A stretch of 44,282 bases of DNA from Saprospiraceae bacterium (GTDB lineage Bacteria; Bacteroidota; Bacteroidia; Chitinophagales; Saprospiraceae): positions 26,985 to 71,266 of the forward strand of contig JAGNSQ010000004.1 of NCBI GenBank assembly GCA_017987975.1. The letters run 5' to 3'. The translations under genes and the position numbers were made by a program. Under the pieces are notes generated by a model that saw only the letters and a list, made by a program, of their open reading frames with translations, was not told where the DNA came from and did not search any database. This document shows positions 22,942 to 44,282 of the stretch, one piece after another. Numbering within the stretch: position 1 is the stretch's first letter; each line of letters begins with the position of its first letter.

Positions 22942-23001
22942 CGTACTGATGCCCTGATTACCGATTAACAATATTGTTAATATATTATTTTGCTCATTAC
23001 C

Positions 23002-29000: not shown

Positions 29001-29712
29001 GGATTCTGATATTGATGGAGCTGGAGTAACACCGGCTGTAACTGTCTTACCAGGTCAAGTAATCAATCACGTAGATGCCGGTATTTTCTTGCCTGGTTGT
29101 ATAGGCAATTTTGTTTGGTTGGACGAAAACAAAAACGGTATTCAGGACATCGGAGAGCCAGGTGTATTTGATGTAGTAGTCCATCTGTTTAAATCCAACG
29201 GCAGCCTGGTTGCAACAGGATCTACCAATGAAGAAGGATTTTACCAGTTTAATGATCTGGCACAGGGGCTTTATTATACACAGTTTATTATAGAAACGCC
29301 CTATGTTTTCACTATAATAGACCAGGGCGATGAAACCACAGATTCTGATGCCGATGCCAATGGTTTGACCCCTTTGATATCATTGGCCCATGGTGCCAAA
29401 TTTTTTGATCTGGATGCAGGGGTCTTTATTCCCACCCAGTTGATTCAAAACACAGAGCCACAAGCTGATTTAGAGGAAGATCCTTCCTTGATAATAACGC
29501 CCAATCCGGCCAACTTCCAAACCACTTTGGTAACGCCGGAGGCTGGTAGAAAAATGACCCTGTTGGATCAGACAGGTAAGACTATCAAGACCTGGCTGTC
29601 AGTTGCTAAACAAGAAGTATTGGATCTGAGAGATTTGCAGGCCGGAATCTATTTTGTAGTCATGGAGAGTGAGGGAGGCAGGATTCAGCAACAGCTTATT
29701 AAAATGGATTAA
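23002..29712 (+). CDS. Giant SdrD B-like repeat surface protein with T9SS tail
   Basis: 2236 residues from the ATG at 23002; a TTG at 22990 would add only MLIT. A signal peptide (about 1-30, ending NAKAQ) is followed by an N-terminal beta-rich region of about 270 residues with GINIPQGATIHGIKVNV and VTIEISYT, as in other Bacteroidota surface proteins. Then come 16 repeats of about 115 residues (23893-29432), each opening with a form of IGDFVWxDxNxNGxQDxGEPGI and ending near D(I)DAG. This is the SdrD B-like (Cna-B/prealbumin-like) fold with Ca-binding D/N loops. The C terminus (ITPNPANFQTTLV to the end) is a T9SS type A sorting domain. It probably forms a long stalk-like adhesin. Copies in the middle (about 8-13) are more degenerate. 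Confidence 0.88.
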   Translation: MGLRREHYSLIRQLLPFSFLFIILGNAKAQSNCTVRVAEEPLPLSTLSKPTKAEQFTSFSQKEWQDIGKALVADDAHAKVVLNGQFYSSTLRLSQTGINIPQGATIHGIKVNVEGKRQGEGTLKEFGIRLVSGSTVSANMAGKAYNAMNAWAKSSVDKKWSYGYTDYLWGVNWTPAMVNDPTFGIEIQLINFSTQSVEANIDAVTIEISYTPLATFCLTDVFSVYVDQRPDGCKYMWKVPEGFEWTSKSTNNYIVDFKASYAQPGIYPFCVDIYGYQNEYLGSCCRDIRIRNCTPSTLGNFVWNDINYNGLQENGEPGIKDVKVELYNSDNLLVQSVITNAAGQYLFTNITEGNYYVIVRLPSDYLTTISNSGDPLNNSDFISGNNRSETLFLPFGSNRTDLDFGLVKKLKIGDFVWEDLNYNGIQDSGEPGIANVTVKLYNAAGILVQSVVSDAGGKYSFDNVPAAQYELEFVAGTSYLPTRLQQGNTVSDSDIQINGRTGLINFQNTSSQLTIDAGFYRLGSIGDFVWNDLNNDGIQSPQEPGTPDLTLYLLNDLGQVIDTTITNAGGQYLFDSLVPGQYSVKIILPPFTEPTQLLTGTGTSKLETVNGMFVSQAVTLSSNQNVSDNDLGYIEINSAVGGYVFRDFNNNGARDNNEPGIPAIEVTLIRGNLQVVSTITTDADGFYQFDNLQQGGYFISCSIADSLQYTDADVGTDDIDSDIQDRIGIGFTNLIDLLAGDSLTNVYAGVCRRSCIGDRVWRDADYNGIQDTGEPGIEGIVVTLNDESGIALNQTTTDADGRYKFDKLPVGQYQILVSIPQGSIATRIQQGTPTLDSDINPDGLATDLVLPLGIDNKDVDAGLTLSLELGDFVWEDLNYNGLQDAGEPGIEGVAVRAVDASGNLLAETLTGADGKYLLSGLPSIDIEMTFEVAAPYSATQSILTDPSTNSDINNAGSTGLLLLTGQNSNLDIDAGMYVESCIGDFIWLDQNGDGKQDAGDAGLKDVMVVLYNEAGVQQQIFISDETGQYEFCGLEPGNYYLTTQPIRGYFPTLEGAGSILKDMGNGEFRTELFTLISGDNLMDLDLGFEYKPQSKLCGIVFADENADGRYTLNETGIANVIIELQDQNFIPLSQTTTALDGKYCFDDVLPGEYTIKFFIGDSLQFTDANVGSEDADSDALGTTDIGLTQVVTVQAATDINDVYAGITYRSSIAGFAWFDFAKDGLRGVTEPGIPNISVELLDEAGLSLASTTTGTDPTGYYSFDKLPRGNYKIKFQTNPNFDFTIKGVDPIIGSYANADGITDVLTALPNEDLLTINGGFAFKGGGIEGVAWKDLNKNKERDQDDDVLPLVNVYLYDGLGQLIKTTQTDFTGSYSFFPVNSGLYYVVFDTFPELTFVMPDPLFLNSDVTHENGRGSTHYITVNNGAIEAGIDAGYYDIRSYLSGTAWEDRDGDGALAATDTVLRDIKVILWSNGVAVDSTLTDENGLYIFGPLLPGKFVVQYANTDSNYTITYLQVAGLDTLIDSDINADGFTDTILVGECLVIGGINGGYRGFGKMQGEGFVDENENGLNDDAIEALNDIQVSLIDQFDNVVASDTTREINGEQGRFAFDKIPVGDYKMRVKRPLFYVFTFQNAGGGSQEDIDSDVLLSSNTYAFSDAIAIRKDQTVDNQDFGLVFRTPAISSIRGQVWTENIIDGQRIVGELPVEGMTMGLYKSDDSLVKQTTTDAEGKYIFDQLIEGFYYVKAELAAGMTYTFYKEGSDFTIDSDFSDGYRQDATLLFYLGISADTLAVDLGVTNELRVGDFVWDDLNDNGLQDAQEPGMTGVKVSVVRNDNKIIKTTTTDATGMYQMVRIPAGNYRMVFDLPTGYSSAKKQAGGSAIDSDINEDGRSDLFFFPAPASRNDLDAGFVKNGSIGDFVWIDFNANGIQNSGEPGKDSVVINLYNDAGQLVKTTQSFTNVASGVQGQYLFTNVRPGSYFLEFITPAQYQVVPQDIGDDELDSDIDGAGVTPAVTVLPGQVINHVDAGIFLPGCIGNFVWLDENKNGIQDIGEPGVFDVVVHLFKSNGSLVATGSTNEEGFYQFNDLAQGLYYTQFIIETPYVFTIIDQGDETTDSDADANGLTPLISLAHGAKFFDLDAGVFIPTQLIQNTEPQADLEEDPSLIITPNPANFQTTLVTPEAGRKMTLLDQTGKTIKTWLSVAKQEVLDLRDLQAGIYFVVMESEGGRIQQQLIKMD
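23893..29432 (+). repeat. Sixteen tandem SdrD B-like domain repeats
   Basis: Sixteen copies, about 340 bp each, counted by the opening pattern (G)(D/N)xVWxDxNxxGxxxxxEPGI. Copies 1-6 and 14-16 keep the pattern closely; copies 7-13 vary. DNA identity between copies is limited, so these are old protein-level repeats, not recent DNA duplications. Confidence 0.8.
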
Positions 29713-29784
29713 AGCTGAAATTATAAAATCATTAACACTTGTACCGTGAAAAGTCACGTTATACTTAACATAAATCACCAATAA

Positions 29785-30864
29785 ATGAAACGATTAACTT
29801 TTTTATGGGTATTATTTGCCTGTCTGGCAATAGACTTGCAGGCGCAACCAATCGATGAAGAAATAGGATTTAAATTGGTTAAAGCAGAATACCTCATCAA
29901 TACAGAGCGCTTTGAAGATGCGATCAAAGAATTGAATGCCGTAATTCTGGAAAACCCTAATTATAAGAATGCACTTTTGTTAAGAGCTGAAACTAAATAC
30001 AAGCTGGCGGCATACAAAGGAGCCAAAAACGATGCCATGGAGTACATCACCAGTCACGGCATTACGGCCAAAGCGGCTTCCATTTTAGGCAAATCAGAGT
30101 ATGCCATGGGCAATGATGATCCTGCGTTAAATTCACTCATTGCTGCTACAGCATTAGGAGAATCTGATTTTAGGGTACATGAAATCAAAGCTGAAATTTT
30201 AGAAAGGAAAAATCAAAAAATTAGTGCCTGCGAAGAATGGCAGGCTGCTGCCAGGTTGGGAAGTACCAAGGCTGCTATCAATGCGCGCAAACTCTGTGGA
30301 GCTAAAACCGAAGTGCCGGTGCAACAAATACCAACCCATAATGATGCAACGCATTCAGATGATAATGATGCTACCCACCATGAAGAAGTGAATCCGGGAA
30401 CAGTTGGCACAGATACAAGTGTGGTTGCAGAAGGTGAAGTGATTTCAGATGGAAAACAAGAACAAACTGATTCCACCAAAACAGAAAATGCTGAAAGCCA
30501 GAGTGGCGAACAAACCAACATTGGCGGAGATCTTTTGATACCAGATGAAGACAATACCATCAACAGCATTGTTATCGATGAAGAGCTTACCCTCGAGTTA
30601 TTTGGGCAGGGCTTGGGCAAGCGCAGGGTTTTAGAGCGCCCAAGCATACTAATACTGGCAGAAAAAGATGGATTGGTTACTGTGGAAATCTGTGTGAACG
30701 CAGAGGGAAGGGTTGACTATGCAGAATTTGTAGCTTCCAAATCAACTTTAAGCCAAAACAGCCTGGTGTCACTGGCCATCAGAAAGGCAAAAGAATTTTG
30801 GTTTGAAGATTCAGAATATCCCAAACAATGTGGTTTTATCCGATTTAAGATCAAAGGAAGCTAA
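29785..30864 (+). CDS. Exported TPR-type protein with TonB-C-like C-terminal domain
   Basis: 359 residues. A signal peptide (about 1-21, ending DLQAQ) is followed by TPR-like helices to about residue 175 (FEDAIKELNAVILENPNYKNALLLRAETKY, ACEEWQAAARLGSTKAA). An acidic, low-complexity linker rich in His, Asp, Thr and Gln spans 180-260. The C-terminal 85 residues resemble a TonB C-terminal domain: VTVEICVNAEGRVDYAEFV then SLVSLAIRKAKEFWF and FIRFKIKGS. No N-terminal TonB anchor is seen, so it is likely a periplasmic relative rather than a classical TonB. It follows the adhesin gene by 72 bp and shares its strand, so it may assist export or anchoring of that protein. The next gene is convergent with no bases between stops. 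Confidence 0.65.
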   Translation: MKRLTFLWVLFACLAIDLQAQPIDEEIGFKLVKAEYLINTERFEDAIKELNAVILENPNYKNALLLRAETKYKLAAYKGAKNDAMEYITSHGITAKAASILGKSEYAMGNDDPALNSLIAATALGESDFRVHEIKAEILERKNQKISACEEWQAAARLGSTKAAINARKLCGAKTEVPVQQIPTHNDATHSDDNDATHHEEVNPGTVGTDTSVVAEGEVISDGKQEQTDSTKTENAESQSGEQTNIGGDLLIPDEDNTINSIVIDEELTLELFGQGLGKRRVLERPSILILAEKDGLVTVEICVNAEGRVDYAEFVASKSTLSQNSLVSLAIRKAKEFWFEDSEYPKQCGFIRFKIKGS

Positions 30865-32400
30865 TCATTTGATTTTTTTCAAAACCTCTTCCTGCACGGT
30901 GGTTCCATTGATTTTGGCATCCAGCCAAGCAATGATATCGAGGTACAGGAAGGGTCTTTTTTCATAGGGGTGTTCACTGTAGGGCAGTAATTTGGCTCTC
31001 AAACTTTTAAACTCCTTTTTCACTTCTGTTGGGAAGATGGCCGGTGTTTTTCTCAAAAAAGAAAGGATCTCCCGCTGCACACCCTGCATGTCTTCCATGT
31101 TGCTTAAAAAGCGAAAAACCGAACGTATCTGATAACTCATTAACACGTCATTGCCCAATTCGTAGTGAACAATGAGGCATAGAAATCGAGCAAAACATTG
31201 GATGTCTTGCCTGATTTTAGACGATGGCGCATTGATAATGAGGTTGAGATAGGTGAGGGCCTGGCTATAATCATTTGCTCCAAAATAAACGCAAGCCAGT
31301 TTGTAGTGCAGCACAATGATGCGACTCTCGTCCCATTGCATTTCATTTTTTTTCAAAAGATCTTCGAGGGGCTTACAATTGTTTTTGCCACTTACAAATT
31401 GTCCGGTGAGGAAGATTTCATTGAGCAGATGCAGATGATAATACATTTGATAGTTGGACCGGTCGTTTTCACTTAACCTGATGGGAGGATGGTCGCCAAA
31501 GCTTTTATATTTGTGAAAGTAAGATTTAAACTTATCTCTTTTGCCGGCCATATAAAGTGCGTTGAGTGTATTGTGCATACCCTTCAAATACATGGTGGTA
31601 TCCGTCAGAATCATTTTGGGATCTGACTCAAAACAATCCACCCATTTTTGAGAATATTTGTAATAGCCGACAAAATCCTGGATCATGTGGTGATACCACA
31701 CCTGGCATTGAAAGAGGTAGACCTTTTCATAAAAGTCCAAATTTTTGGTGCTTTTTTGCGGTAAATTGGCTTGAAAAAAGGCATGGATGTAATCGAAGTC
31801 TTTTTGATCCTTTACATAACCATGTTTAAGATAGAGCGTATAAAGGGCCATTGACAGATTGCTGTACTCATTGCCGGTTACCAGGTTTCTGACCAGGTCG
31901 TCGCCTTGTTTTTTCAACCTGTCTGCAATGACTGGATTATTGCCGGTGACAAATTGATTCTCAATAAATCTTTCAAAATCGAGGGCATGGTACAACAGGG
32001 GTTGGTTGTGAACGGTGAGAGCTGATTTTTTAGCCTTTTCTATGCTCTCCAGGGCTGCTTTCTGCATGCCTTTGGCAAGTAGGATACGGGCATGGTCTAT
32101 CCATTCGCGGGCTGCAATATCTTCGTACGTAGTGCGACCCAGCCAGCGCAAACTGCCCAACAGCTGTCGGTACAAGTGTGCCTTGAGATTAGGAAGTTGG
32201 GATTTTTTAATTCCCGGAACTTTTTGAAGCAACAAAGACTCATTGTAATCGCGATTGTCATCAATAAAATCAAAAAGCTGGAGAAACAACTTTTCATCCG
32301 CATTGCCCAGCCTTCCTGCAAATAGCCGAAAGTTTCGCTTTTCAGACTTGGAAAGAGAATAGACAAGGTCTACCAGATATTCCGTTTGTTGTTTTGGCAT
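30865..32400 (-). CDS. Conserved helical (TPR-like) protein of unknown function
   Basis: 511 residues, no signal peptide or membrane segment. The whole protein is predicted helical: it opens LVDLVYSLSKSEKRNFRLFAG, followed by paired helices spaced like TPR or HAT repeats. I recognise the general type as a Bacteroidota-conserved hypothetical but cannot assign a function. It lies 21 bp downstream of the carbonic anhydrase gene on the same strand, so it may be the last gene of the bestrophin / carbonic anhydrase operon. Confidence 0.6.
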   Translation of the reverse strand: MPKQQTEYLVDLVYSLSKSEKRNFRLFAGRLGNADEKLFLQLFDFIDDNRDYNESLLLQKVPGIKKSQLPNLKAHLYRQLLGSLRWLGRTTYEDIAAREWIDHARILLAKGMQKAALESIEKAKKSALTVHNQPLLYHALDFERFIENQFVTGNNPVIADRLKKQGDDLVRNLVTGNEYSNLSMALYTLYLKHGYVKDQKDFDYIHAFFQANLPQKSTKNLDFYEKVYLFQCQVWYHHMIQDFVGYYKYSQKWVDCFESDPKMILTDTTMYLKGMHNTLNALYMAGKRDKFKSYFHKYKSFGDHPPIRLSENDRSNYQMYYHLHLLNEIFLTGQFVSGKNNCKPLEDLLKKNEMQWDESRIIVLHYKLACVYFGANDYSQALTYLNLIINAPSSKIRQDIQCFARFLCLIVHYELGNDVLMSYQIRSVFRFLSNMEDMQGVQREILSFLRKTPAIFPTEVKKEFKSLRAKLLPYSEHPYEKRPFLYLDIIAWLDAKINGTTVQEEVLKKIK

Positions 32401-32421
32401 AAAAAGAGAAGCAGACTTGGT

Positions 32422-33048
32422 TTATTGGAGCCTGTAGATTTCCATAATTTTTGACAAAATTTTTGAGAAATCGATATTTAAGTCTACTAATTTTCCAGAA
32501 TGAACATCAAAAATCCAGCCATGGACCAACAGGCCCCATTCTTTATGAGCTTTTTGCACAGAAGCTGTTTTGATGAGATTGATGCATTGTTCCTGCACAT
32601 TCAGTTCGATTAATCGGTTGTAGCGATCATCTTCGTTGATATAGGTGTTGAGTTCATCCTGGTACGTGCGGTAAACATCTCTTATGTTTCTGAGCCACGG
32701 ATTCAGAATGCCCATGTCCTTGCTTTGCATGGCGGCTTTGACTCCTCCGCAATGATAGTGGCCACAAACGATGACGTGTTTTACCTTAAGGTGGTCTATG
32801 GCATAGTTGATTACCGACATGGCGTTGAGGTCGATGCTTACCACCATATTGGCAATGTTGCGGTGGACAAAAATTTCACCCGGCACCAGGCCCATGATTT
32901 CTTCTGCTGTTACCCTACTATCCGAACAGCCAATATAAAGGTATTCCGGGTTTTGTCCTTTAGAAAGTTTATCAAAATAGAAGGGGTCTTCGGCAATCCT
33001 GTCCTGGACCCATTTTTCATTGTTTTCAAATATTTTTGAAAGGTGCAT
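32422..33048 (-). CDS. can: Beta-class carbonic anhydrase
   Basis: 208 residues, cytosolic. Zinc ligands C41, D43, H97 and C100 and the D43-R45 dyad are present in YIGCSDSRV and CGHYHCGG, matching E. coli Can. VHRNIANMV and the later CINLIKTASV also fit. It converts CO2 and water to bicarbonate. It lies 11 bp after the bestrophin-like gene, on the same strand; a channel of that family could carry the bicarbonate across the membrane, so the pair may act in bicarbonate or pH handling. Confidence 0.94.
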   Translation of the reverse strand: MHLSKIFENNEKWVQDRIAEDPFYFDKLSKGQNPEYLYIGCSDSRVTAEEIMGLVPGEIFVHRNIANMVVSIDLNAMSVINYAIDHLKVKHVIVCGHYHCGGVKAAMQSKDMGILNPWLRNIRDVYRTYQDELNTYINEDDRYNRLIELNVQEQCINLIKTASVQKAHKEWGLLVHGWIFDVHSGKLVDLNIDFSKILSKIMEIYRLQ

Positions 33049-33059
33049 ATGAGTGGTTT

Positions 33060-34082
33060 TTATAGTAAAATATTGTTGACTGGCTTGATAGGATCTGGTA
33101 TTTCTTCATAATTGAACATCTCTTTGAGGTCAATTTCTATTCCCCTTGCCATAGCAGTGATCGGCACATCGTTGGCACTGCCTTCAAATGGGCTTTCGGT
33201 GACTTCGCCTATTTTTTCTAGGGTGGTAAAGAGCCAGGCTGAGAGGATAGAAAAAGGAATGTTGAGCCAGATCAGGTTGTCGCCCAGCTTATCAAATTCC
33301 TGCAGCATGCCGAAGGGAATCAACACAACGAAGGCCTTGATAAAATAGAGATTAAGGGTAGCAAACTGGCGGGGATAGGGAAAGTTTTTAATTCTTTCAG
33401 AAGCACCTTGTTGGTTGTACAATTCAACAATGATTCTTTCCATTTCCATATGTCGAAAATCCTCGATGTAGCCGAGTTCGAGCAGTTGTTTGAGATGGCT
33501 AGATTGAAGGGCCAGAATCTGGGCTGCCTTATTGGTTTTTTTACTTACCAGGGTGCATTCTTCATCCACAACAAATGGGGCGATGGCTTCATCAATGGGT
33601 ACAGAATGTTCGTCGACCGAATAAGTGCGATTCCGGTATTCGATGTTGTGGACCTGGTGGCGTGATTCCCATACTCTGGGTTCTCTAAGCTGGTACCGTA
33701 GAGCTGTCAGCCAGGCTATATGCCGGTCAATCAATCGGCGTTTTACCATTGACAATTCCTCATCGTTGAGGCTTGTAGTGGCATGGCGATTGGTAACATA
33801 GTCCTGAACCATGATGCCCCAACTTCTGCTGGCATTGACGATAGCACCCCAGATGCGACGGGCTTCCCAAAGGCGGTCGTAAGACGCATTGTTTTTAAAA
33901 CCTACTACAAAGGCAACGGCAGTACCCATTAGGGCTATGGGCAACCAGGGTATGGCAATCCACCGGCAGTTTAAAAAATGATAGATAGAGGTAGCCACAA
34001 AAGCAACCACAAAATGGAAGTATATATCTCTACGGGTCCACAGAATGACCTCTTTGAGCGAATAGTTTTTAGCGGTGTGCAT
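33060..34082 (-). CDS. Bestrophin-family anion channel (UPF0187)
   Basis: 340 residues. Bestrophin motifs are clear: NNASYDRLWEARRIWGAIVNASRSW near 62-86, a first membrane pair near 24-60 (IYHFLNCRWIAIPWLPIALMGTAVAFVVGF) and a second near 240-290 (LNLYFIKAFVVLIPFGMLQEF, NIPFSILSAWLFTTLE), followed by the conserved PFEGSANDVPI segment. Bacterial bestrophins form pentameric ion channels. Bacterial homologues vary in ion selectivity, so chloride or bicarbonate passage is inferred. The gene heads a minus-strand operon with carbonic anhydrase and starts across a 306-bp divergent region from the cytochrome operon. Confidence 0.9.
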   Translation of the reverse strand: MHTAKNYSLKEVILWTRRDIYFHFVVAFVATSIYHFLNCRWIAIPWLPIALMGTAVAFVVGFKNNASYDRLWEARRIWGAIVNASRSWGIMVQDYVTNRHATTSLNDEELSMVKRRLIDRHIAWLTALRYQLREPRVWESRHQVHNIEYRNRTYSVDEHSVPIDEAIAPFVVDEECTLVSKKTNKAAQILALQSSHLKQLLELGYIEDFRHMEMERIIVELYNQQGASERIKNFPYPRQFATLNLYFIKAFVVLIPFGMLQEFDKLGDNLIWLNIPFSILSAWLFTTLEKIGEVTESPFEGSANDVPITAMARGIEIDLKEMFNYEEIPDPIKPVNNILL

Positions 34083-34388
34083 ACCATCAGATTGTTGGTT
34101 GCAAGATAAGATTTCTGAATTAGCATTCCAATCACAAAAGCAGGCAAAAGTTCAAATGTGGACGGACATTACAGATTGATAATGTCCGATTGGGTAAATT
34201 TGGCAAGACTATTAAATACAATTTAAATTTGGATTATGATGACTAGTGATTTAAAGTTGAAATAAAATAGGTTATTTGGATTGTAAACAGTATAAAATTT
34301 TGATTATTTTTATTTGTGATAACAAATATTGAAAATTAGGGGTAAACCATAGGTGCGGCACAGAATTTAATTTTGCTATCTTTAAGCC
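34083..34388. promoter_or_regulatory. Divergent control region of bestrophin and cytochrome operons, with two palindromes
   Basis: This 306-bp AT-rich gap holds no gene. It contains two clean inverted repeats: CGGACATTA (34163-34171) with TAATGTCCG (34180-34188), 8 nt apart; and TATTTGT (34311-34317) with ACAAATA (34322-34328), 4 nt apart. The first is 81 bp upstream of the bestrophin start, the second 61 bp upstream of the small exported protein gene. They look like operator sites for dimeric regulators, though hairpins are possible. A near-consensus TATCTTTA lies at 34377-34384, but too close to the ATG at 34389 to be a normal promoter for that start. Confidence 0.45.
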
Positions 34389-34778
34389 ATGAAACAGCGA
34401 TTGGCTACGCTACTACTCATTTTTTATATTTCGGCTATTGTTCCAATTTCGGAATGGGCGAAATTACCATATTTGTGGGATCACTACTGTGAACACAAAT
34501 TGGCCGATGCCAGCATGGATTTTTTCGACTTCATTGACCATCATTACGGCAACTGCTTAAAGGTCTACCCCGATGCAGAAAAAGACATGAAGTTGCCTTT
34601 CAAATCAGAGAATCAATCTAACACAATCATGTTGTCAGTTGTACCCAAACAGATGTATGATTTGTTGGTAGTTGATACTCATTCTACTATGATTAACAAA
34701 ACCAGGTTTATATTTAACAATCACTTCACTTCTGCAGATGAAGCAGATACCTGGCAACCGCCCAAACTTCTTTCTTAG
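34389..34778 (+). CDS. Small exported protein of unknown function at the head of the cytochrome operon
   Basis: 129 residues with a hydrophobic N-terminal segment (about 1-21, LATLLLIFYISAIVPI) that is a signal peptide or anchor. The following residues hold several His and Cys (WDHYCEHKL, DHHYGNCLKVYPDAE), which could bind metal, but no haem motif CxxCH exists. The rest is soluble and mixed. I do not recognise a family. It lies 58 bp before the membrane cytochrome gene on the same strand and may belong to the same transcript. Confidence 0.5.
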   Translation: MKQRLATLLLIFYISAIVPISEWAKLPYLWDHYCEHKLADASMDFFDFIDHHYGNCLKVYPDAEKDMKLPFKSENQSNTIMLSVVPKQMYDLLVVDTHSTMINKTRFIFNNHFTSADEADTWQPPKLLS

Positions 34779-34836
34779 GAATAACTTCGGGACCTTCATT
34801 TAGCTAATAGCTTACCTTTTCTTTTTAATTAAATTA

Positions 34837-35697
34837 ATGAATAAAACCGCACATAGCATTTACCTTGCTACGTTAACGCTCATAGTAATAGCAGTAACTA
34901 TTTATCTGTTTTACTATGGCGCCTCGTATTACAATACCAGTATGGAAGAGCGTTTCTACCATACTGACCATGGTGACCTAAAGCCAAGCGGAGTTTATGG
35001 CCATGGTTTAGGTATTATAGGTACCCTGCTCATTTTGATCGGAGTGTTTGGATACATGGCGCGTAAGAGGTATCGTATATTATCCAGGATTGGGGTGCTA
35101 AAACATTGGTTGGAGTTTCATATCTTTTTGTGTACACTGGGTCCTATTATGATTCTTTTCCATACCTCCTTTAAGTTTGGTGGCATTGTGTCAATAAGTT
35201 TTTGGAGCATGGTGGCTGTTGTTGCGAGTGGTGTAATAGGCAGGTTTATATATTTGCAGATTCCCCGCACCATCCAGGGTAGAGAATTGAGTATTGCAGA
35301 GATTGGTGAAATGCAGGAAGATATTGCCTATCGCGTGAGAGAAGAAGCAGGTGAGCATTCAGACGAAGTATTGCAAGCATGGCACGACGTAATTCAGGAA
35401 AGAAAAAATCAGGGCAATCCCGGATTTCTAAAAACCTACATGAGGGACTATCAACTCAAATCACATTTTGCCAATCAGTTGAAGTCCTGGAATATATCTA
35501 CCCGTAACAATCGTATCATTACAGGATTGATATCTACAGAATTGGGCATACAGCGAAAAATTGAAAGACTCATGTTGATGCAAAAATTGTTTAGGTACTG
35601 GCACATTGCCCACCTGCCTTTTGCCCTCATCATGCTTATCATTATGGTCATCCATGTAGGCGTGACCCTTGCTTTTGGCTATAAATGGATCTTTTAA
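34837..35697 (+). CDS. Probable di-haem membrane cytochrome b
   Basis: 286 residues with about five membrane helices (approximately 8-27, 56-74, 92-110, 118-140, 256-280) and a charged loop (about 145-250). Helix 3 has H95 and H109, and helix 5 has H259 and H273; each pair is exactly 14 residues apart, the spacing by which cytochrome b-type proteins hold two stacked haem b groups between two helices. H56 and H90 are extra candidates. No c-type motif is present. It ends 1 bp before the Fe-S flavoprotein gene. The likely role is to pass electrons across the inner membrane between the cytosolic or membrane flavoprotein and the exported multihaem cytochromes. No precise family name is claimed; the di-haem assignment is inferred from spacing and context. 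Confidence 0.7.
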   Translation: MNKTAHSIYLATLTLIVIAVTIYLFYYGASYYNTSMEERFYHTDHGDLKPSGVYGHGLGIIGTLLILIGVFGYMARKRYRILSRIGVLKHWLEFHIFLCTLGPIMILFHTSFKFGGIVSISFWSMVAVVASGVIGRFIYLQIPRTIQGRELSIAEIGEMQEDIAYRVREEAGEHSDEVLQAWHDVIQERKNQGNPGFLKTYMRDYQLKSHFANQLKSWNISTRNNRIITGLISTELGIQRKIERLMLMQKLFRYWHIAHLPFALIMLIIMVIHVGVTLAFGYKWIF

Positions 35698-35698
35698 C

Positions 35699-37036
35699 AT
35701 GGGCTGGTCAATAGAAGAAATAGGAATTTATGCTGTGGCTGCACTAATGTGTGGGCTCATTCTTATGATTTATTTGCGCAAGCTGAAAAATGAATCAAAA
35801 GAGGTTGGCGTTAAAATTGAAAAAGCCATAGCGGAGGGAGTTCATGAGCCGGTATCGCTGCATCCTTACATCGATTTGAATACCTGTATCAAGAGCGGTG
35901 CCTGCATTATTGCTTGCCCGGAACATGATATTCTGGGTATTCGTAATGGTAGGGCCACCCTGATCAATGCCTCCAAATGTGTAGGTCATGGAGCATGCTT
36001 TCACGCCTGCCCGGTAGAAGCCATTTCGCTCAGAATAGGCACAGAGAAGCGGGGAGTTGATTTGCCACACGTCAATCAGAATTTTGAAACCAATGTTCAG
36101 GGTATTTTTATCGCCGGCGAATTGGGAGGCATGGGCCTGATTAAAAACAGTGTGGAGCAAGGTAAACAAGCGGCCGATGAGATTAAAAAATCAACTGAAA
36201 AAAATCATGGTGCCACCTACGATTTGGTAATTGTGGGAGCTGGTCCGGCGGGCATCTCCGCTTCGGTTCAAGCCAAGTTAAACGGACTGAAGGCAGTAGT
36301 TTTAGAACAGGATAGTTTGGGTGGAACAGTTTTTAATTTTCCACGGGCAAAGGTTGTGATGACCAATCCGATGGACCTTCCGGGCCATGGTAAGGTTAAA
36401 TTATTTGAGACCAGTAAGACCGAATTGCTCACCCTTTGGAATGATGTGATTCACAAACACAACATTGAAGTTAGAGAGCAATCTAAAGTAGAGGCCATTT
36501 CCAAAAGAGACCACAACTTTGTTGTAACTACCCACGATGGAGAACAGTTTCATACCCACAAAGTATTGCTTGCCATAGGAAGGCGAGGTACACCCCGCAA
36601 GCTGGGAGTGCCAGGTGAACAAATGGAAAAAGTAGCTTACCGTTTGCTGGAACCTGAGCTCATCCAAGGTAAAAATGTATTGGTAGTTGGCGGGGGAGAT
36701 TCGGCAATAGAAAGCGCTATCTTATTAGCCCAGGGCAATAAGGTTACCCTATCTTATCGAAGTGAAAAATTCAGTCGTTTAAAACCCAAAAACGAAATCA
36801 GCATACAGAATGCGATCAAAACCCAGTTGTTGGAGGTAGCTTTTAATTCCAACGTATTAAATATAGAAAATGACCACGTGATGATGACGGGTTCTGAGGG
36901 AGAATTCAAACTTGCCAACGACCTGGTCTATATCTTTGCGGGGGGTGAATTGCCCACTCAGTTTTTGCAGAAATCTGGAATTGAAATACAAAAACGTTTT
37001 GGATACACCGTAAAATCGCACAAAAGAGTAGGATGA
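35699..37036 (+). CDS. Membrane-anchored Fe-S/FAD/NAD(P) oxidoreductase
   Basis: 445 residues from the ATG at 35699; a longer frame to 35669 overlaps the previous gene and was rejected. One N-terminal helix (about 9-27) anchors the protein. Residues about 55-110 form a ferredoxin-like domain with two cluster motifs, C63-x5-C69-x3-C73-P and C94-x5-C100-x3-C104-P; the usual second cysteines are S66 and H97. Residues 120-162 (VNQNFETNVQGIFIAGELGG) resemble the GIFAAGD-type FAD segment that normally ends thioredoxin-reductase-like proteins. The FAD motif G180AGPAG and the NAD(P) motif VVGGGDSAIESA (about 329-340) follow. No redox CxxC is present in the flavin domain. It probably takes electrons from NAD(P)H and feeds the neighbouring cytochromes, or the reverse. 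It overlaps the next gene by 4 bp. Confidence 0.82.
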   Translation: MGWSIEEIGIYAVAALMCGLILMIYLRKLKNESKEVGVKIEKAIAEGVHEPVSLHPYIDLNTCIKSGACIIACPEHDILGIRNGRATLINASKCVGHGACFHACPVEAISLRIGTEKRGVDLPHVNQNFETNVQGIFIAGELGGMGLIKNSVEQGKQAADEIKKSTEKNHGATYDLVIVGAGPAGISASVQAKLNGLKAVVLEQDSLGGTVFNFPRAKVVMTNPMDLPGHGKVKLFETSKTELLTLWNDVIHKHNIEVREQSKVEAISKRDHNFVVTTHDGEQFHTHKVLLAIGRRGTPRKLGVPGEQMEKVAYRLLEPELIQGKNVLVVGGGDSAIESAILLAQGNKVTLSYRSEKFSRLKPKNEISIQNAIKTQLLEVAFNSNVLNIENDHVMMTGSEGEFKLANDLVYIFAGGELPTQFLQKSGIEIQKRFGYTVKSHKRVG

Positions 37037-38880
37037 TAATCGGGTATAACATAACGAAGCTACTGCAGTCAGCAATGATGACCCTCCTGGTCCTTTGCTC
37101 TGGTGCTGCATGGGCGCAGTTATCACCCGGTAAATTGACAAAAGCGCATTCAAAACTGGAAGGGCTGGCCAATTGTACGCAGTGCCACACTATTGGTGCA
37201 AAAATATCCGAGCAAAAATGTCTTGACTGTCATAAAGAATTGAAAGGCCGAATTTCTTCCAAAAAGGGATATCACGTTTCATCAGCTGTTAAAGGAAAAG
37301 AATGCATTACCTGTCACAGTGAACACCATGGGCTCAACTTTGACATGGTGAGGTTTGATAAAAAGACCTTTGACCATAAGCTTACCGGCTATGAGCTCAA
37401 AGGAGGGCACAAAATTTCTGATTGTGCAAAGTGTCATAAACCAGATAATATAGCCTCTGCAACCCTCAAAAAAAAGCCGGAAACTTTTCTGGGCCTGGAA
37501 ACCAAGTGCATGAGTTGCCATGAAGATTATCACCAAAAAACAATGTCTTCGGATTGTGCTTCATGCCACAATTTTACCAAGTTTAAACCTGCGAGTCTAT
37601 TTAATCATGCCAAAACAGAATTCCCTTTGCTGGGCGCGCACAAGACAGTTGATTGTGCCTCATGCCACAAAGTAGAAATGCGCAATGGCAAGGAGTTTCA
37701 AAAATTTGCAGTGGCCTCATTTAAAAATTGTAGCAATTGCCACAACGATGTACATAAAGGTGAATTTGGCACTCAATGTAAGGCGTGCCACAATGAAGAA
37801 TCTTTTCATAAAATAACGGCAGGTCCCGGCTTCAATCATAATGTTACAGGATTTACCCTGGTAGGCAGGCACCAAAAGATAGATTGTAAAGCCTGCCATG
37901 AGAAAAGTTTTGGCTTGGGAGGGCATTTTAAAGAGTTTAAGAGCAAAGACGCCAATGATTGTCGCACCTGCCACAAAGATGTGCATGAAGACAAATTTGG
38001 AAGCAAATGTCTTGATTGCCATAATCAGAACTCATTTAAGTCAGGCAAAACACCCCAATTAGATAATTTTGATCACAGTTCTACCGGTTTTGCCTTATTA
38101 GGCAAACACCAGAAAGTGGATTGTCGTACCTGTCATAAACAAGATCTGACCACACCCATGGCCCATGATCAATGTGCATCATGTCACAAAGATCACCATG
38201 AAGGCGATTTTGCAACTAAAAAAGATCGCTATCCTGATTGTGCCAGCTGCCACAACGAACAAGGCTTTATGCCCTCTACATTTACCATTGAGCAGCATGA
38301 GAAGAGCAGCTTTGTGTTAAATGGTGCACACTTAGCAACTCCTTGTAACGCTTGTCACTGGAAAGAAAATAAGTGGGAATTTAACATCCCCCAGCAAGAA
38401 TGTAAATCATGCCATGAAGACATCCATAAAAATTATATGGATGAAAAATATTATGGCCAAAATTCTTGTAAAACCTGTCACAATACAGATTCATGGCTGG
38501 CCGGCAATTTTGACCATAGCCTCACTGACTGGGCTCTGGAAGGTAAACATGCTACCATCAGTTGCGGACAATGCCACATGGATACAAAAACAGGTACAAG
38601 GATACAGCGCTTTAGGGATTTAGATGGCGAATGCGTTACCTGTCATGATAATATACACGGCACCCAGTTTGAAGTAGAAGGTAAAACAGATTGCAGCCGG
38701 TGCCACGGCTTCAAAGAATGGAAGGCCGATAAGTTTGATCATAATCTCACTCAGTTTAAATTAGAAGGAGAACATAAGGTCGTAGCCTGTATAAAATGTC
38801 ATAAAGAAACAATGGTTGAAGGCAAAAAAACTGTCAATTATAAAATAGAAAAATTTGCATGCGTAGACTGCCATCAATAA
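37033..38880 (+). CDS. Exported 23-haem cytochrome c
   Basis: 615 residues. The signal peptide ends GAAWAQ (about 29), so haem would be attached in the periplasm. I count 23 CxxCH motifs. Most sit in a repeating three-haem block: CxxCH, about 20 residues, F(D/N)HxxTxFxLxGxHxxxDCxxCH, about 15 residues, then CxxCH often followed by DxH. The extra histidines in FNH and GxH are likely axial ligands. No lipobox is seen. It should act as a periplasmic or surface electron carrier. The start overlaps the flavoprotein stop (ATGA) and its own end overlaps the next gene by 22 bp, so translation of all these genes is probably coupled. Confidence 0.92.
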   Translation: MIIGYNITKLLQSAMMTLLVLCSGAAWAQLSPGKLTKAHSKLEGLANCTQCHTIGAKISEQKCLDCHKELKGRISSKKGYHVSSAVKGKECITCHSEHHGLNFDMVRFDKKTFDHKLTGYELKGGHKISDCAKCHKPDNIASATLKKKPETFLGLETKCMSCHEDYHQKTMSSDCASCHNFTKFKPASLFNHAKTEFPLLGAHKTVDCASCHKVEMRNGKEFQKFAVASFKNCSNCHNDVHKGEFGTQCKACHNEESFHKITAGPGFNHNVTGFTLVGRHQKIDCKACHEKSFGLGGHFKEFKSKDANDCRTCHKDVHEDKFGSKCLDCHNQNSFKSGKTPQLDNFDHSSTGFALLGKHQKVDCRTCHKQDLTTPMAHDQCASCHKDHHEGDFATKKDRYPDCASCHNEQGFMPSTFTIEQHEKSSFVLNGAHLATPCNACHWKENKWEFNIPQQECKSCHEDIHKNYMDEKYYGQNSCKTCHNTDSWLAGNFDHSLTDWALEGKHATISCGQCHMDTKTGTRIQRFRDLDGECVTCHDNIHGTQFEVEGKTDCSRCHGFKEWKADKFDHNLTQFKLEGEHKVVACIKCHKETMVEGKKTVNYKIEKFACVDCHQ

Positions 38881-41800
38881 TATATATTTTGATGGTGCTG
38901 GTGATCCAGTTATCAGCACAAACGTCACCCCATGGCGCTGGCTTTGCTATGGATTGTGCCAAGTGTCACAGTCCGGAAAGCTGGACATACTCCAACAAAG
39001 CTCAATTTTCTCATGACAGCACAGGGTTTTCTCTTACAGGTCAACATCGCGATCTGGAATGTAAGTCATGTCATACCAGTCTTGAATTTAATAAAATTGA
39101 TAATGCCTGTATTTCTTGTCATACAGATGTACACCAACAAACAGTAGGCAATGATTGCGCTCGCTGTCACACAGCGGATTCCTGGTTAGTAGACAATGTT
39201 ACACAACTCCATGAAAGGACTTCTTTTCCACTAATGGGTGTACATGCTACCGTTAATTGTAATGCATGTCATGATACAGAAACCAATATGCGTTTTGCAC
39301 CAACTGGCATGGACTGTATATCCTGTCACCGGGCGGACTATGTGGCAACAAAGCAGCCGGATCACGTTAAGTTTGGATTTTCAACCGATTGCGCATCTTG
39401 TCATAGTTTGACCATAACCGATTGGAATACCGACAAAGTAGATCACACTTTCTTTCCGCTGGAAAAAGGCCACGCCATTGATGATTGTGTCAAGTGCCAT
39501 CAGAGCGGTGATTACTCTACGGCTGTAGCTGATTGTTTTAGCTGCCATGAAAATGATTATATGGCTACTATCAATCCCAATCACAGCGTTCTCGCCTTTG
39601 GCACGGATTGTAGACAATGCCATGATTTAACACCAGGATGGAAACCTGTAGATTACCGGGAACACGATGCCAAATATTTCCCTATTTATTCAGGCAAACA
39701 CCAGGGTACCTGGGAAACATGTGCTTCGTGCCACACAGACCCCAATAATTATGCTTCATTTTCATGTGTAATTTGTCACAAAGATCCGGAGACCAGCAAT
39801 TTACACCAATTGGTATCCGGGTATACTTACCAGGACAATGCCTGTCTTGCTTGTCACCCTACCGGTGATGCTGACATGGCCTTCAACCATGATGCCACCC
39901 AATTTCCATTGACAGGGGCTCACAAGATTTTGGATTGTATTGCCTGCCATGCCAACGGATATGCAGGTACACCCATTGAGTGTAAGTCTTGCCACCTTGA
40001 GAACTTTACATCGACCTCTGACCCTGACCACCAGGCCTTGAACTTATCTGAAGATTGTAAGGCGTGTCATAGCACCGAACCCGGTTGGGCCCCTGCCCGA
40101 TTTGATGTGCACGATGACTATTATCCTTTGTTGGGTACACACGCTGCAGTAGCCAATGATTGTGCTCTGTGTCACAACGGCAGTTACAACAATACACCCA
40201 ATAATTGCGCCGGCTGTCATATAGACGATTACAATACTACTACAGACCCTAACCACAAGTTGAGTCAGATTTCTCAGGACTGTGCTTCCTGCCACGGACA
40301 AGCAGCCTGGCAGCCATCCACTTTTAATCACGATGGCATGTATTTTCCAATCTACTCAGGGAAACACAACGGTGTGTGGATGCAGTGTACCGAATGCCAC
40401 AAAAATCCTTCCAACTATACAGAATTTACCTGTGTCAGTTGTCACCAGAATCCGGAGACCAATGATCTTCATACCGGGGTGAGTGGCTATAATTACAATG
40501 ACAATGCTTGTCTTGCCTGCCACCCAACAGGTGATGCCGAAAATGCTTTTGATCACAATAGTACTCAGTTTCCGTTGACCGGAGCCCACACAACTGTAGA
40601 TTGTATCAGTTGTCACGCTGGTGGTTTTGAAGGTACATCTACCCTGTGTGTTGATTGTCATCAATTGGATTTTAATGGCACTACCAACCCTAACCATGCG
40701 GGTCTTGGTTTTGCAACAGATTGCAAGCAATGCCATACGACCAATCCGGGATGGGCACCTGCAACGATGCCTAATCACAACGATTACTATGTTTTAAACG
40801 GAGCGCATGCCGGCATTGCCAATGACTGTGCGGCGTGTCATAATGGAAATTACAATACAACACCCAATACCTGTGCTGGCTGTCATCAAGCGGATTATAA
40901 TGCAACCACAGATCCCAACCATGCCCAGGCTCTTTTTCCCAATGACTGCGCTTCATGCCATTCTGAAACTGCATGGCAACCTTCCACTTTTAATCACGAT
41001 GGGCAATACTTCCCTATTTATAGTGGTAAACACCAGGGCACTTGGATGCAGTGTACTGAGTGCCACACCAATCCGGCTAATTATGCAGAATTTACCTGTG
41101 TGACCTGTCATCAAAACCCGGAAACCAATGATCAACACAATGGTATACCCGGTTATATTTATCAATCCAATGCTTGTTTGGCTTGCCACCCTACCGGTGA
41201 TGCAGCTTTAGTATTTGACCACAATACCACTCAGTTTCCATTAACAGGGGCTCACACTACGGTAGATTGTATTAGCTGTCATGCCAATGGCTTCCAGGGA
41301 ACATCGACTGCTTGTATGGATTGTCACCTCACCGATTTTAATGCCACAGTAAATCCAAACCACGTTGCTCTTGGCATACCAACTGATTGTGCTCAATGCC
41401 ATACAACAGCTCCAGGTTGGACGCCTGCCAGTTTTGATATTCACAACCAGTATTATCCTTTGAATGGTGCCCATGCCACAATTGCCAATGATTGTGCTAC
41501 TTGCCACAATGGCAATTATAACAATACACCCAATACCTGTGCTGCTTGTCACAATGATGATTATGTGGCAACCACCAATCCGAATCACGTGGCGGCCCAA
41601 TTTCCCAATGATTGTGCTTCATGTCACAGTGAACAAAATTGGGTGCCATCTACCTTTAATCACGATGGCCAGTATTTTCCAATTTACAGTGGAAGCCACA
41701 ATGGCCAATGGACACAATGTATAGATTGTCACAGTAATCCTGCCAATTATGCGCAGGTAGTGTGTATTACCTGTCACCAAAATCCGGAGACCAATGATCA

Positions 41801-44282
41801 ACACCAAACCGTAGGAGGTTATGTGTATACCAATGCAGCTTGTTTGGCATGTCACCCTACCGGTGAGGCCAACGGCATGTCATTTAACCATAACACTACT
41901 GCCTTCCCGTTGACAGGAGGCCATATGGGTGTAGACTGTATTCAGTGTCATGCCAGCGGTTATCAAGGTACTACAACAGTTTGTGTAGATTGCCACATGG
42001 ATAACTTCACGGCGAGTGTAGAACCCAACCACGTGGCACTCAACATCCCTACCGATTGTACCATGTGTCACACCACCACACCTGGTTGGGCACCGGCTAC
42101 CTTCCCGATTCACAATCAATATTACCCATTGAATGGGGCTCACGCTACTATCGCCAATGATTGTGCTTCTTGTCACAGTGCGGGATACAACAATACACCT
42201 AATACCTGTAACGGATGCCACAATGCCAACTATGTAGCTACTACCAATCCCAACCATGCGACGGCTCAATTTCCTACGTATTGTGCATCTTGTCACAATG
42301 AAAATACCTGGATGCCGGCTACTTTTGACCACGATGGCTTGTATTTCCCCATTTACAGCGGAAGTCACAATGGACAATGGACACAGTGCATCGATTGCCA
42401 TAACAATACTGCTAACTATGCCCAGGTGGTTTGCATCACCTGTCACCAAAATCCGGAGACCAATGATCAGCACCAAACCGTGGGAGGTTATGTATATACG
42501 AATGCTGCTTGTCTGGCATGTCACCCCACAGGTGAGGCCAATGGCATGTCTTTTAACCATAACACTACTGCCTTCCCATTAACAGGAGGCCACATCGGAG
42601 TAGACTGTATCCAGTGTCATGCCAGCGGTTATCAGGGGACTACAACTGTTTGTGTGGATTGTCACATGGATAATTTTACAGCCAGTGTAGAACCCAATCA
42701 CGTAGCCTTAAATATGCCTACCGATTGTGCCATGTGTCACACTACCACACCTGGTTGGGCACCGGCTACTTTCCCGATACACGATAATTATTATGCACTG
42801 ACCGGAGTACATGCAGCCATTGCCAATGATTGTGCACAGTGTCACAGCAGTGGATACAGCAATACGCCAAATGAATGCAATGGTTGTCACAATGCTAATT
42901 TTACAGCAGCAGTAAACCCCAACCACATTGCCTTGGGTCTTTCAACAGATTGCGCAAGCTGTCATACCACAGCCCCTGGTTGGGCTCCTGCAACATTTGC
43001 CGTCCACGATGATTATTATCCATTGAATGGTGCCCATGCTGCCATCGCCACTGATTGCGCTGAGTGTCATAATGGAAACTACACCAATACGCCAAATACT
43101 TGCAATGGTTGCCACAATAGTGAATACCAGGCTACCACCAATCCGAATCACGTAACAGCCAACTTCCCCACTGATTGCGCTGCCTGCCACAATGAAAACA
43201 ACTGGACACCGGCCACCTTCAACCACGATGGCTTGTACTTCCCAATATACAGTGGTGAGCACCAGGGGGAATGGACATCCTGCACTGATTGCCACACCAA
43301 CCCCAACAATTATGCGGTTTTCACTTGTCTGACTTGTCACACCAACCCTGAAACCAATGACGAACACGAAGATGTAGGCGGATATGTTTACAATAGCCCA
43401 GCTTGTTTGGCTTGTCACCCACAAGGAGAATCGAGCCCTTCCTCTTTTAATCACAATGCCACTGCCTTCCCTATTACAGGAGCGCACCAGGGCTTGAGTT
43501 GTGTAGAATGCCACTCAGCAGGTTATCAGGGAACATCAACAGCTTGCGTTTCATGCCATAATACGGAGTTTCAGGGTGCAGTTGAACCCAATCACCTAGC
43601 CTTAAATTTCCCTACGGATTGTGCTATGTGTCATACCACAGCCCCTGGTTGGGCGCCTGCTACCTTCCCCATTCATAGTAATTATTATGAATTGACAGGG
43701 GCACACGCCGGTATTGCCAACGATTGTGCTTTATGCCATACCGCTGGATACAGCAATACACCCAATACTTGCAATGGATGCCATAACGACAATTATGTCG
43801 CAGCAGCTAATCCGAATCACGTGGCTCTTGGCTTGTCAACAGATTGTGCTTCATGCCATACGACAGCCGCAGGTTGGTCGCCCGCCACTTTTGCTGTACA
43901 CAACAATTATTATCCACTGACTGGAGCGCATGCATCGATAGCAAATGATTGTGAGCAATGCCATGCGGGAGGTAATTATAGCAATACACCCAATACATGC
44001 AATGGATGTCACAACGCTAATTATGTAGCAGCAGCGAATCCGAATCACGTGGCTCTTGGCTTGTCAACCAATTGTGCAACATGCCATACTACATCACCTG
44101 GCTGGTCACCTGCCACTTTTGCTGTTCATAATACTTATTATCCATTGACAGGAGCCCATGCTTCCATAGCGAGTGATTGTGAGGAGTGCCATGCAGGAGG
44201 TAATTATAACAATACACCCAATACGTGCAATGGATGTCACAACGCTAATTATGTAGCAGCAGCGAATCCGAATCACGTGGCT
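38859..44282 (+). CDS. Giant multihaem cytochrome c with at least 72 haem sites (3'-partial)
   Basis: The frame opens at the ATG at 38859 and has no stop to the window end: 1808 codons, incomplete. The first 21 residues (MRRLPSIIYILMVLVIQLSAQ) are a clear signal peptide, fixing the start inside the end of the 23-haem gene. I translated the frame and counted 72 CxxCH motifs, forming 24 consecutive three-haem blocks: CxxCH, then W-x-P-x-x-F-x-H and GxH, then CxxCH, then CxxCH. The first 12 sites form a less regular N-terminal part. After that the blocks cycle in groups of three to give a 9-haem super-repeat of about 222 residues, and later a single block type expands in tandem. Histidines in FNHDG, GxH and NPNH are probable axial ligands. 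Likely a periplasmic or surface electron wire. Shorter ORFs on both strands here are shadows. Confidence 0.93.
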   Translation, partial: MRRLPSIIYILMVLVIQLSAQTSPHGAGFAMDCAKCHSPESWTYSNKAQFSHDSTGFSLTGQHRDLECKSCHTSLEFNKIDNACISCHTDVHQQTVGNDCARCHTADSWLVDNVTQLHERTSFPLMGVHATVNCNACHDTETNMRFAPTGMDCISCHRADYVATKQPDHVKFGFSTDCASCHSLTITDWNTDKVDHTFFPLEKGHAIDDCVKCHQSGDYSTAVADCFSCHENDYMATINPNHSVLAFGTDCRQCHDLTPGWKPVDYREHDAKYFPIYSGKHQGTWETCASCHTDPNNYASFSCVICHKDPETSNLHQLVSGYTYQDNACLACHPTGDADMAFNHDATQFPLTGAHKILDCIACHANGYAGTPIECKSCHLENFTSTSDPDHQALNLSEDCKACHSTEPGWAPARFDVHDDYYPLLGTHAAVANDCALCHNGSYNNTPNNCAGCHIDDYNTTTDPNHKLSQISQDCASCHGQAAWQPSTFNHDGMYFPIYSGKHNGVWMQCTECHKNPSNYTEFTCVSCHQNPETNDLHTGVSGYNYNDNACLACHPTGDAENAFDHNSTQFPLTGAHTTVDCISCHAGGFEGTSTLCVDCHQLDFNGTTNPNHAGLGFATDCKQCHTTNPGWAPATMPNHNDYYVLNGAHAGIANDCAACHNGNYNTTPNTCAGCHQADYNATTDPNHAQALFPNDCASCHSETAWQPSTFNHDGQYFPIYSGKHQGTWMQCTECHTNPANYAEFTCVTCHQNPETNDQHNGIPGYIYQSNACLACHPTGDAALVFDHNTTQFPLTGAHTTVDCISCHANGFQGTSTACMDCHLTDFNATVNPNHVALGIPTDCAQCHTTAPGWTPASFDIHNQYYPLNGAHATIANDCATCHNGNYNNTPNTCAACHNDDYVATTNPNHVAAQFPNDCASCHSEQNWVPSTFNHDGQYFPIYSGSHNGQWTQCIDCHSNPANYAQVVCITCHQNPETNDQHQTVGGYVYTNAACLACHPTGEANGMSFNHNTTAFPLTGGHMGVDCIQCHASGYQGTTTVCVDCHMDNFTASVEPNHVALNIPTDCTMCHTTTPGWAPATFPIHNQYYPLNGAHATIANDCASCHSAGYNNTPNTCNGCHNANYVATTNPNHATAQFPTYCASCHNENTWMPATFDHDGLYFPIYSGSHNGQWTQCIDCHNNTANYAQVVCITCHQNPETNDQHQTVGGYVYTNAACLACHPTGEANGMSFNHNTTAFPLTGGHIGVDCIQCHASGYQGTTTVCVDCHMDNFTASVEPNHVALNMPTDCAMCHTTTPGWAPATFPIHDNYYALTGVHAAIANDCAQCHSSGYSNTPNECNGCHNANFTAAVNPNHIALGLSTDCASCHTTAPGWAPATFAVHDDYYPLNGAHAAIATDCAECHNGNYTNTPNTCNGCHNSEYQATTNPNHVTANFPTDCAACHNENNWTPATFNHDGLYFPIYSGEHQGEWTSCTDCHTNPNNYAVFTCLTCHTNPETNDEHEDVGGYVYNSPACLACHPQGESSPSSFNHNATAFPITGAHQGLSCVECHSAGYQGTSTACVSCHNTEFQGAVEPNHLALNFPTDCAMCHTTAPGWAPATFPIHSNYYELTGAHAGIANDCALCHTAGYSNTPNTCNGCHNDNYVAAANPNHVALGLSTDCASCHTTAAGWSPATFAVHNNYYPLTGAHASIANDCEQCHAGGNYSNTPNTCNGCHNANYVAAANPNHVALGLSTNCATCHTTSPGWSPATFAVHNTYYPLTGAHASIASDCEECHAGGNYNNTPNTCNGCHNANYVAAANPNHVA
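39843..42509 (+). repeat. Nine-haem super-repeat, four successive copies
   Basis: Taking the cysteine codon of CLACHP(T/Q)G as the marker, copies start at 39843, 40509, 41175, 41841 and 42510. The first three spacings are exactly 666 bp (222 codons); the fourth is 669 bp because one residue is added after PTGEA. Each unit has nine CxxCH motifs in the same order. The copy at 41841 and the next at 42510 are the most alike, differing mainly at third codon positions. Confidence 0.9.
42726..43175 (+). repeat. Tandem pair of the TTxPGW three-haem block
   Basis: In the super-repeat starting at 42510 the block opening C(A)xCHTT(T/A)PGW occurs twice, at 42726 and 42951, exactly 225 bp (75 codons) apart. 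This lengthens that unit from 669 to 894 bp and from 9 to 12 haem sites. Confidence 0.85.
43620..44282 (+). repeat. Tandem run of the TTxPGW three-haem block, reaching the window end
   Basis: Block starts at 43620, 43845 and 44073 (225 and 228 bp apart). The last two copies share near-identical DNA: the 42 bases ending the window (44241-44282) recur 228 bp upstream. The run is still going at the edge, so its copy number is unknown. Confidence 0.85.

Follow-up and report, generated by a model that had tools for sequence, protein, structure and literature searches.

The window, the whole stretch of 44,282 nucleotides analysed here (G000:C2:26985-71266), ends at the last base of contig C2, which has 71266 bases in total. 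Its 3' part carries the following features, all on the forward strand.

34389..34778 (+): small open reading frame with a signal-like N-terminus, upstream of the operon; operon membership uncertain
34837..35697 (+): probable dihaem cytochrome b, an integral membrane protein of 286 aa with invariant H95/H109 and H259/H273
35699..37036 (+): membrane-anchored oxidoreductase with one transmembrane helix, two Fe-S cluster motifs and an NAD(P)/FAD Rossmann domain
37033..38880 (+): 23-haem cytochrome c of 615 aa with 23 CxxCH, probable periplasmic partner
38859..44282 (+): 5' part of the giant multihaem cytochrome c (1808 codons, 72 CxxCH); the full gene lies on contig C203
38859..39932 (+): signal peptide and 13-haem head of the giant; CxxCH spacing as in a stand-alone 13-haem paralogue (e.g. 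L052:5893-6909)
39933..44282 (+): array of three-haem modules of ~75 aa each, CxxCH spacing 31-37/15-16/25-26, mostly in nine-haem A-B-C superunits of 666-669 bp
43752..44282 (+): tandem modules of 228 bp, nearly identical to each other, likely site of array growth and site of the assembly break

The giant occupies a single open frame with about one CxxCH per 25 residues, beginning with MRRLPSIIYILMVLVIQLSAQ..., a Sec-type signal sequence that includes a hydrophobic N-terminal stretch. The sequence-only reading had described 1808 stop-free codons that encode a signal peptide and 72 CxxCH and run off the window, and re-reading of the window confirmed this description. Residue-shuffled versions of the frame contained a mean of 0.91 CxxCH and a maximum of 5, which rules out chance density as the source of the 72 motifs.

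The frame is open at its 3' end because the contig stops exactly there. A second contig from the same genome (C203) matches window positions 25556-44124 with 0 mismatches and extends the frame as far as a TGA stop (L023:470-6697, minus strand), giving 2075 codons, of which 34 come from a 100-N gap, and 82 CxxCH. The tail of C2 spans this gap in 31 bp and then rejoins C203 without mismatch. As the shortest consistent gene, the complete giant has at least 82 CxxCH and ~2052 aa (about 2050-2075 aa), which supplies the stop codon, and a minimum for the motif count, that the sequence-only reading had left to further sequencing. The motif count is given as 82+3k because the gap sits in near-identical 228-bp units that are possibly collapsed. 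As C2 and C203 belong to one assembly and are not independent of each other, independent support for the gene comes from intact genes in other MAGs. The 18.6 kb shared by window positions 25556-44124 and C203 (L023) is present twice in the assembly, mismatch-free, and this MAG redundancy calls for caution in statements on completeness and copy number drawn from the assembly.

Architecture and haem ligands of the giant

The giant consists of a 13-haem head followed by at least 23 three-haem modules of ~75 residues each. The haems of the head have a fixed spacing (35-59,16,16,34,19,25,32,16,25,37,15,26), which recurs in a stand-alone 13-haem protein (~340-380 aa) found in relatives either beside the giant or alone. 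After the head, the spacing of the modules settles into the repeating pattern listed above, often as nine-haem superunits. In all complete giants examined (about 25, with 58 to 94 CxxCH), the number of CxxCH equals 3n+1, and seeming exceptions (62, 65 and 72) were gone once an upstream start codon was taken.

In the full giant, all 164 of 164 cysteines lie within CxxCH motifs, leaving no stray cysteine, and 81 non-motif histidines accompany the 82 haems, or approximately one extra histidine per haem. When 550 modules were aligned, conservation at 95% or above was confined to the three sets of C, C and H and three further histidines, which is the number that bis-His ligation of three haems requires. 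All modules are of this bis-His kind, with no recognisable catalytic site. The giant scored 242.9 bits against PF14522 (cut-off 24.8) and 194.7 bits against PF14537 (cut-off 25.0). Judged by its Pfam scores, export signal, CxxCH motifs and distal histidines, the giant is a multihaem c-type cytochrome of the cytochrome c7/c3 class. Pfam matches to DnaJ and ComC were dismissed as effects of its Cys/His composition. Sequence queries against the PDB (giant, 23-haem protein, module profile and b-type protein) returned no relevant match, and an AlphaFold2 model of six modules (alignment of 67 rows) reached a mean pLDDT of 47.5, too low for use.

Relatives, selection and array growth

Complete giants were found in three public metagenome records titled Bacteroidetes: CALMSX010000060.1 (L037; 2204 aa, 88 CxxCH, best segment 95% identical), CALMWS010000408.1 (L036; 1899 aa, 76 CxxCH) and WSXU01000010.1 (L038; 1555 aa, 61 CxxCH). 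The second of these also holds another, incomplete giant (L036:18076-21552) with at least 46 CxxCH, which follows the first operon in the same orientation and is truncated by the contig end. Intact single frames of 1453-2353 aa are present in about 25 other genomes, several of them on long gap-free contigs. With a threshold of E 1e-40 or better, the first 280 residues of the giant found a match in 89 genomes (39 of 112 genera) out of 398 sampled from the window's family. At the same threshold, 34 of 395 genomes sampled across the phylum carry a head homologue, mostly with shorter frames. The sequence-only reading had placed the protein in a phylum not usually regarded as a model for extracellular electron transfer; these head homologues, and the Saprospiraceae cytochromes with >100 motifs described in the main text of PMC11495043, make the phylum less surprising than that implied. 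Haem-copper oxidases are encoded in 12 of the 12 genomes tested, so these organisms are not obligate metal reducers, and on this gene content they can probably use oxygen.

Comparison with the nearest orthologue (L037) over 1640 residues gave a dS of 1.02 and a dN of 0.029 (dN/dS 0.028), with conservation of all 195 of 195 motif residues and all 66 of 66 other histidines. The modules of the two proteins match one-to-one with the exception of the penultimate run. In that run, adjacent modules of the window's genome share 97% identity and none exceeds 85% identity with a module of L037, indicating that the array was recently grown or homogenised at this point. As each module brings its own ligands, module number can vary without a break in the chain. 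Together, the intact orthologues and the strong purifying selection support the existence of a genuine single-chain multihaem cytochrome of very large size in Bacteroidota.

The doubt attached to this protein was that misassembly of repeats had stretched or broken the array and that no such protein exists. The contig does end within 228-bp units with identities of up to 97%, the second contig carries its 100-N gap in the same place, and the gene is also broken in other genomes (G004, G005, G024 and G034). However, most modules share only 52-68% DNA identity and could not have been produced by misassembly, and this doubt is answered by the intact single frames in about 25 other genomes and by the dN/dS value. 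An artefact is so improbable on this evidence that we consider it refuted for the gene as such.

Neighbouring genes and predicted localisation

The genes of the operon overlap, by 4 bp between the oxidoreductase and the 23-haem gene and by 22 bp between the end of the latter and the start of the giant, which suggests one transcript. In the predicted cytochrome b, the histidines of each of the two pairs are 14 residues apart and invariant, which we take to be the pattern of dihaem cytochromes b in a membrane protein of 286 aa. Both Fe-S motifs of the oxidoreductase are without the second cysteine (C-x5-C-x3-C, not C-x2-C-x2-C-x3-C), and in the second motif a histidine (H97) stands in its place and is kept in 16 relatives, so that His-ligated or 3Fe clusters are possible. 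Open reading frames of a size similar to the small one at the upstream end of the operon lie at the equivalent place in L036 and L037. Further upstream, a carbonic anhydrase and a bestrophin-family channel are encoded side by side (window 32422-34082), a pair that adjoins the operon in the two closest relatives only.

On the 3' side of the giant, relatives and in part C203 encode a ~540-aa protein and a ~250-aa protein, and genes for both were found in 27 of 27 loci. The 23-haem gene was found in 25 of the 27, the query matching only the giant itself in L088 and L092; the cytochrome b and Fe-S/FAD genes were found in 23 of the 27, and most of the remaining loci are truncated at a contig or fetch end. 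A gene for CcsBA, whose domains were detected directly, lies nearby in 16 of the 27 loci. Another contig of the window's own genome (C86) carries the last part of the ~540-aa gene, the probable barrel gene, followed by the bulk of the gene for cytochrome c synthase, in the same order as in the nearest relative. At one locus (L089:4768-7874), a 16-CxxCH frame and a 25-CxxCH frame lie next to the giant. Homology to the 23-haem gene starts a short way upstream of the 16-CxxCH frame, and this genome may thus have an altered or split 23-haem gene.

For the ~540-aa protein, an outer-membrane beta-barrel is the probable fold, judging from weak strand periodicity (z 1.1-2.8), a family in which 12 of 19 members end in Phe or Leu, and an AlphaFold2 model (alignment of 3 rows) that is beta-rich and, at a mean pLDDT of 41.8, too low-confidence for use. 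Searches of the barrel-like family members against Pfam and NCBIfam gave no match to a porin family, and membership in the MtrB porins was rejected on this basis. On the giant itself we saw no lipoprotein box and no T9SS tail, and hence no mark for the cell surface. Elsewhere in the window, a 2240-aa secreted protein with many SdrD-like repeats (22990-29712) has an apparent T9SS-type C-terminal tail, and positions 18095-20053 match Por_Secre_tail, showing that the organism uses T9SS-type tails, of which the giant has none.

Proposed electron pathway and known systems

Our preferred reading, to which we give somewhat better than an even chance, is that the giant would form the outermost part of a trans-envelope electron conduit as a covalent haem chain. 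In such a conduit, haem attachment by CcsBA would take place outside the cytoplasm, the Fe-S/FAD protein would exchange electrons with a cytoplasmic carrier, and the dihaem cytochrome b would move electrons across the inner membrane. The 23-haem cytochrome would then pass them to the head of the giant, whose haem chain would conduct them between there and an extracellular partner, with flow possible in either direction, while the adjacent probable beta-barrel would serve as an outer-membrane passage or anchor. The three-haem modules, the bis-His complement and the conserved operon for envelope electron transfer fit the single-polypeptide wire first proposed from the sequence, a part of that proposal with which a periplasmic store competes. 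The haem-copper oxidases encoded in these genomes count against the conduit, since respiration need not depend on the giant's system, and so does the lack of a lipoprotein box or T9SS tail on the giant.

In OmcS, OmcE and OmcZ, the haem pitch is 7.3-8.5 angstrom per haem over 6, 4 and 8 haems, respectively (PMC12954529). At this pitch, a chain of 82-94 haems would, if extended, have a length of about 60-80 nm. Such a length exceeds the width of a periplasm, and a chain in extended form would therefore need to exit the cell or run along the wall. A broader proposal, which we put forward tentatively and at slightly less than an even chance, is that a widespread Bacteroidota lineage makes covalent single-molecule wires of roughly 60-80 nm whose length changes in steps of one three-haem module through tandem duplication near the C-terminus, served by a pathway (dihaem cytochrome b, Fe-S/FAD protein, 23-haem relay and a new barrel family) without sequence kinship to Mtr, PCC or Omc.

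The giant might instead be folded or coiled in the periplasm as an electron store, a capacitor charged by the cytochrome b and 23-haem pair when acceptors are lacking and discharged later. We regard this main rival as less likely than the conduit. A purely periplasmic store would have no need of the barrel-like gene present in 27 of 27 loci, and a stand-alone 13-haem version already exists in many relatives. There is nevertheless precedent in Geobacter, where GSU1996 (12 haems) and GSU2210 (27 haems) are periplasmic and proposed as electron stores (PMC10138318), and the main text of PMC11495043 suggests a capacitor-like role for cytochromes with >100 motifs. The giant also has no signal for surface export, and a haem number free to vary (58-94) between conserved ends is what would be expected if only capacity counts. 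Quite improbable, in our estimate, is an electron-uptake or other terminal redox system, in which an extracellular donor is oxidised or a soluble oxidant reduced and the array acts as an antenna and not a wire. In its favour, the sequence does not fix which way electrons flow, the organisms can probably use oxygen, and the 23-haem partner weakly resembles ExtN/ExtO of selenite/tellurite operons and DmsE-type cytochromes, at scores below threshold. Against it, such similarity between multihaem proteins is driven largely by CxxCH itself, and modules that are all of the bis-His kind offer no recognisable site for catalysis.

If the array conducts, as the conduit reading proposes, it would be a covalent haem wire that is encoded genetically and has a defined length, free of the polymerisation problem of OmcS-type filaments, and its natural variants of 58 to 94 haems would provide a way to test the length dependence of conduction or storage. 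A common oxygen-respiring Bacteroidota family would then be capable of extracellular electron exchange or large-scale electron storage, and the conserved gene set would serve as a genetic marker for it.

Cytochromes of this size have been reported before. The main text of a 2024 mSystems survey of MAGs from Danish treatment plants describes previously undescribed cytochromes with >100 haem motifs in some Bacteroidota, especially Saprospiraceae, assigns 90% of its 50 largest cytochromes to Saprospiraceae MAGs, places its maximum of 112 haem motifs in an acidobacterial MAG, and offers counts together with speculation on a role in EET or as a capacitor (PMC11495043); passages of a 2024 scan mention gene neighbourhoods containing more than 100 motifs (PMC11475568). 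By these accounts, the window is neither the first sighting nor the record for haem-motif number. Both the giant and the activated-sludge Saprospiraceae cytochromes of that main text (PMC11495043) are secreted Bacteroidota proteins with very many CxxCH, and they very probably belong to the same family. We found no head-plus-modules rule, conserved gene set or growth hotspot in the main text of PMC11495043 or the passages of PMC11475568, nor a family definition in the former, and relative to these the present analysis adds the architecture, gene set and growth mode of the giants.

Among characterised systems, MtrCAB and PCC encode a periplasmic cytochrome, a larger cytochrome and an outer-membrane barrel together, a layout that the 23-haem cytochrome, the giant and the probable barrel would share; the probable barrel here has no Pfam or NCBIfam porin match, and the cytochromes reach 58 bits against a DmsE/MtrA-type cut-off of 192. 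Like Geobacter GSU1996 and GSU2210, the giant places many c-type haems on one polypeptide in the envelope, and it shares with GSU1996, whose haems lie in one line (PMC10138318), an organisation in repeated three-haem domains, here with a period of ~75 aa; those proteins have 3-7 times fewer haems than the giant. The giant gave no match at E 0.001 to TIGR04257, the NCBIfam three-haem nanowire domain, and was rejected as a member, and the 23-haem partner scored 26.8 bits, below the cut-off of 40. The PDB sequence search found no sequence relation to the solved polymeric nanowires. The giant resembles OmcS, OmcE, OmcZ, PcECN and AvECN in having a long chain of bis-His c-type haems proposed for long-range transfer (PMC12954529). 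Whereas Geobacter OmcE, OmcS and OmcZ are polymers of small subunits with 4, 6 and 8 haems, the giant carries its haems, at least 82 of them, on one covalent chain.
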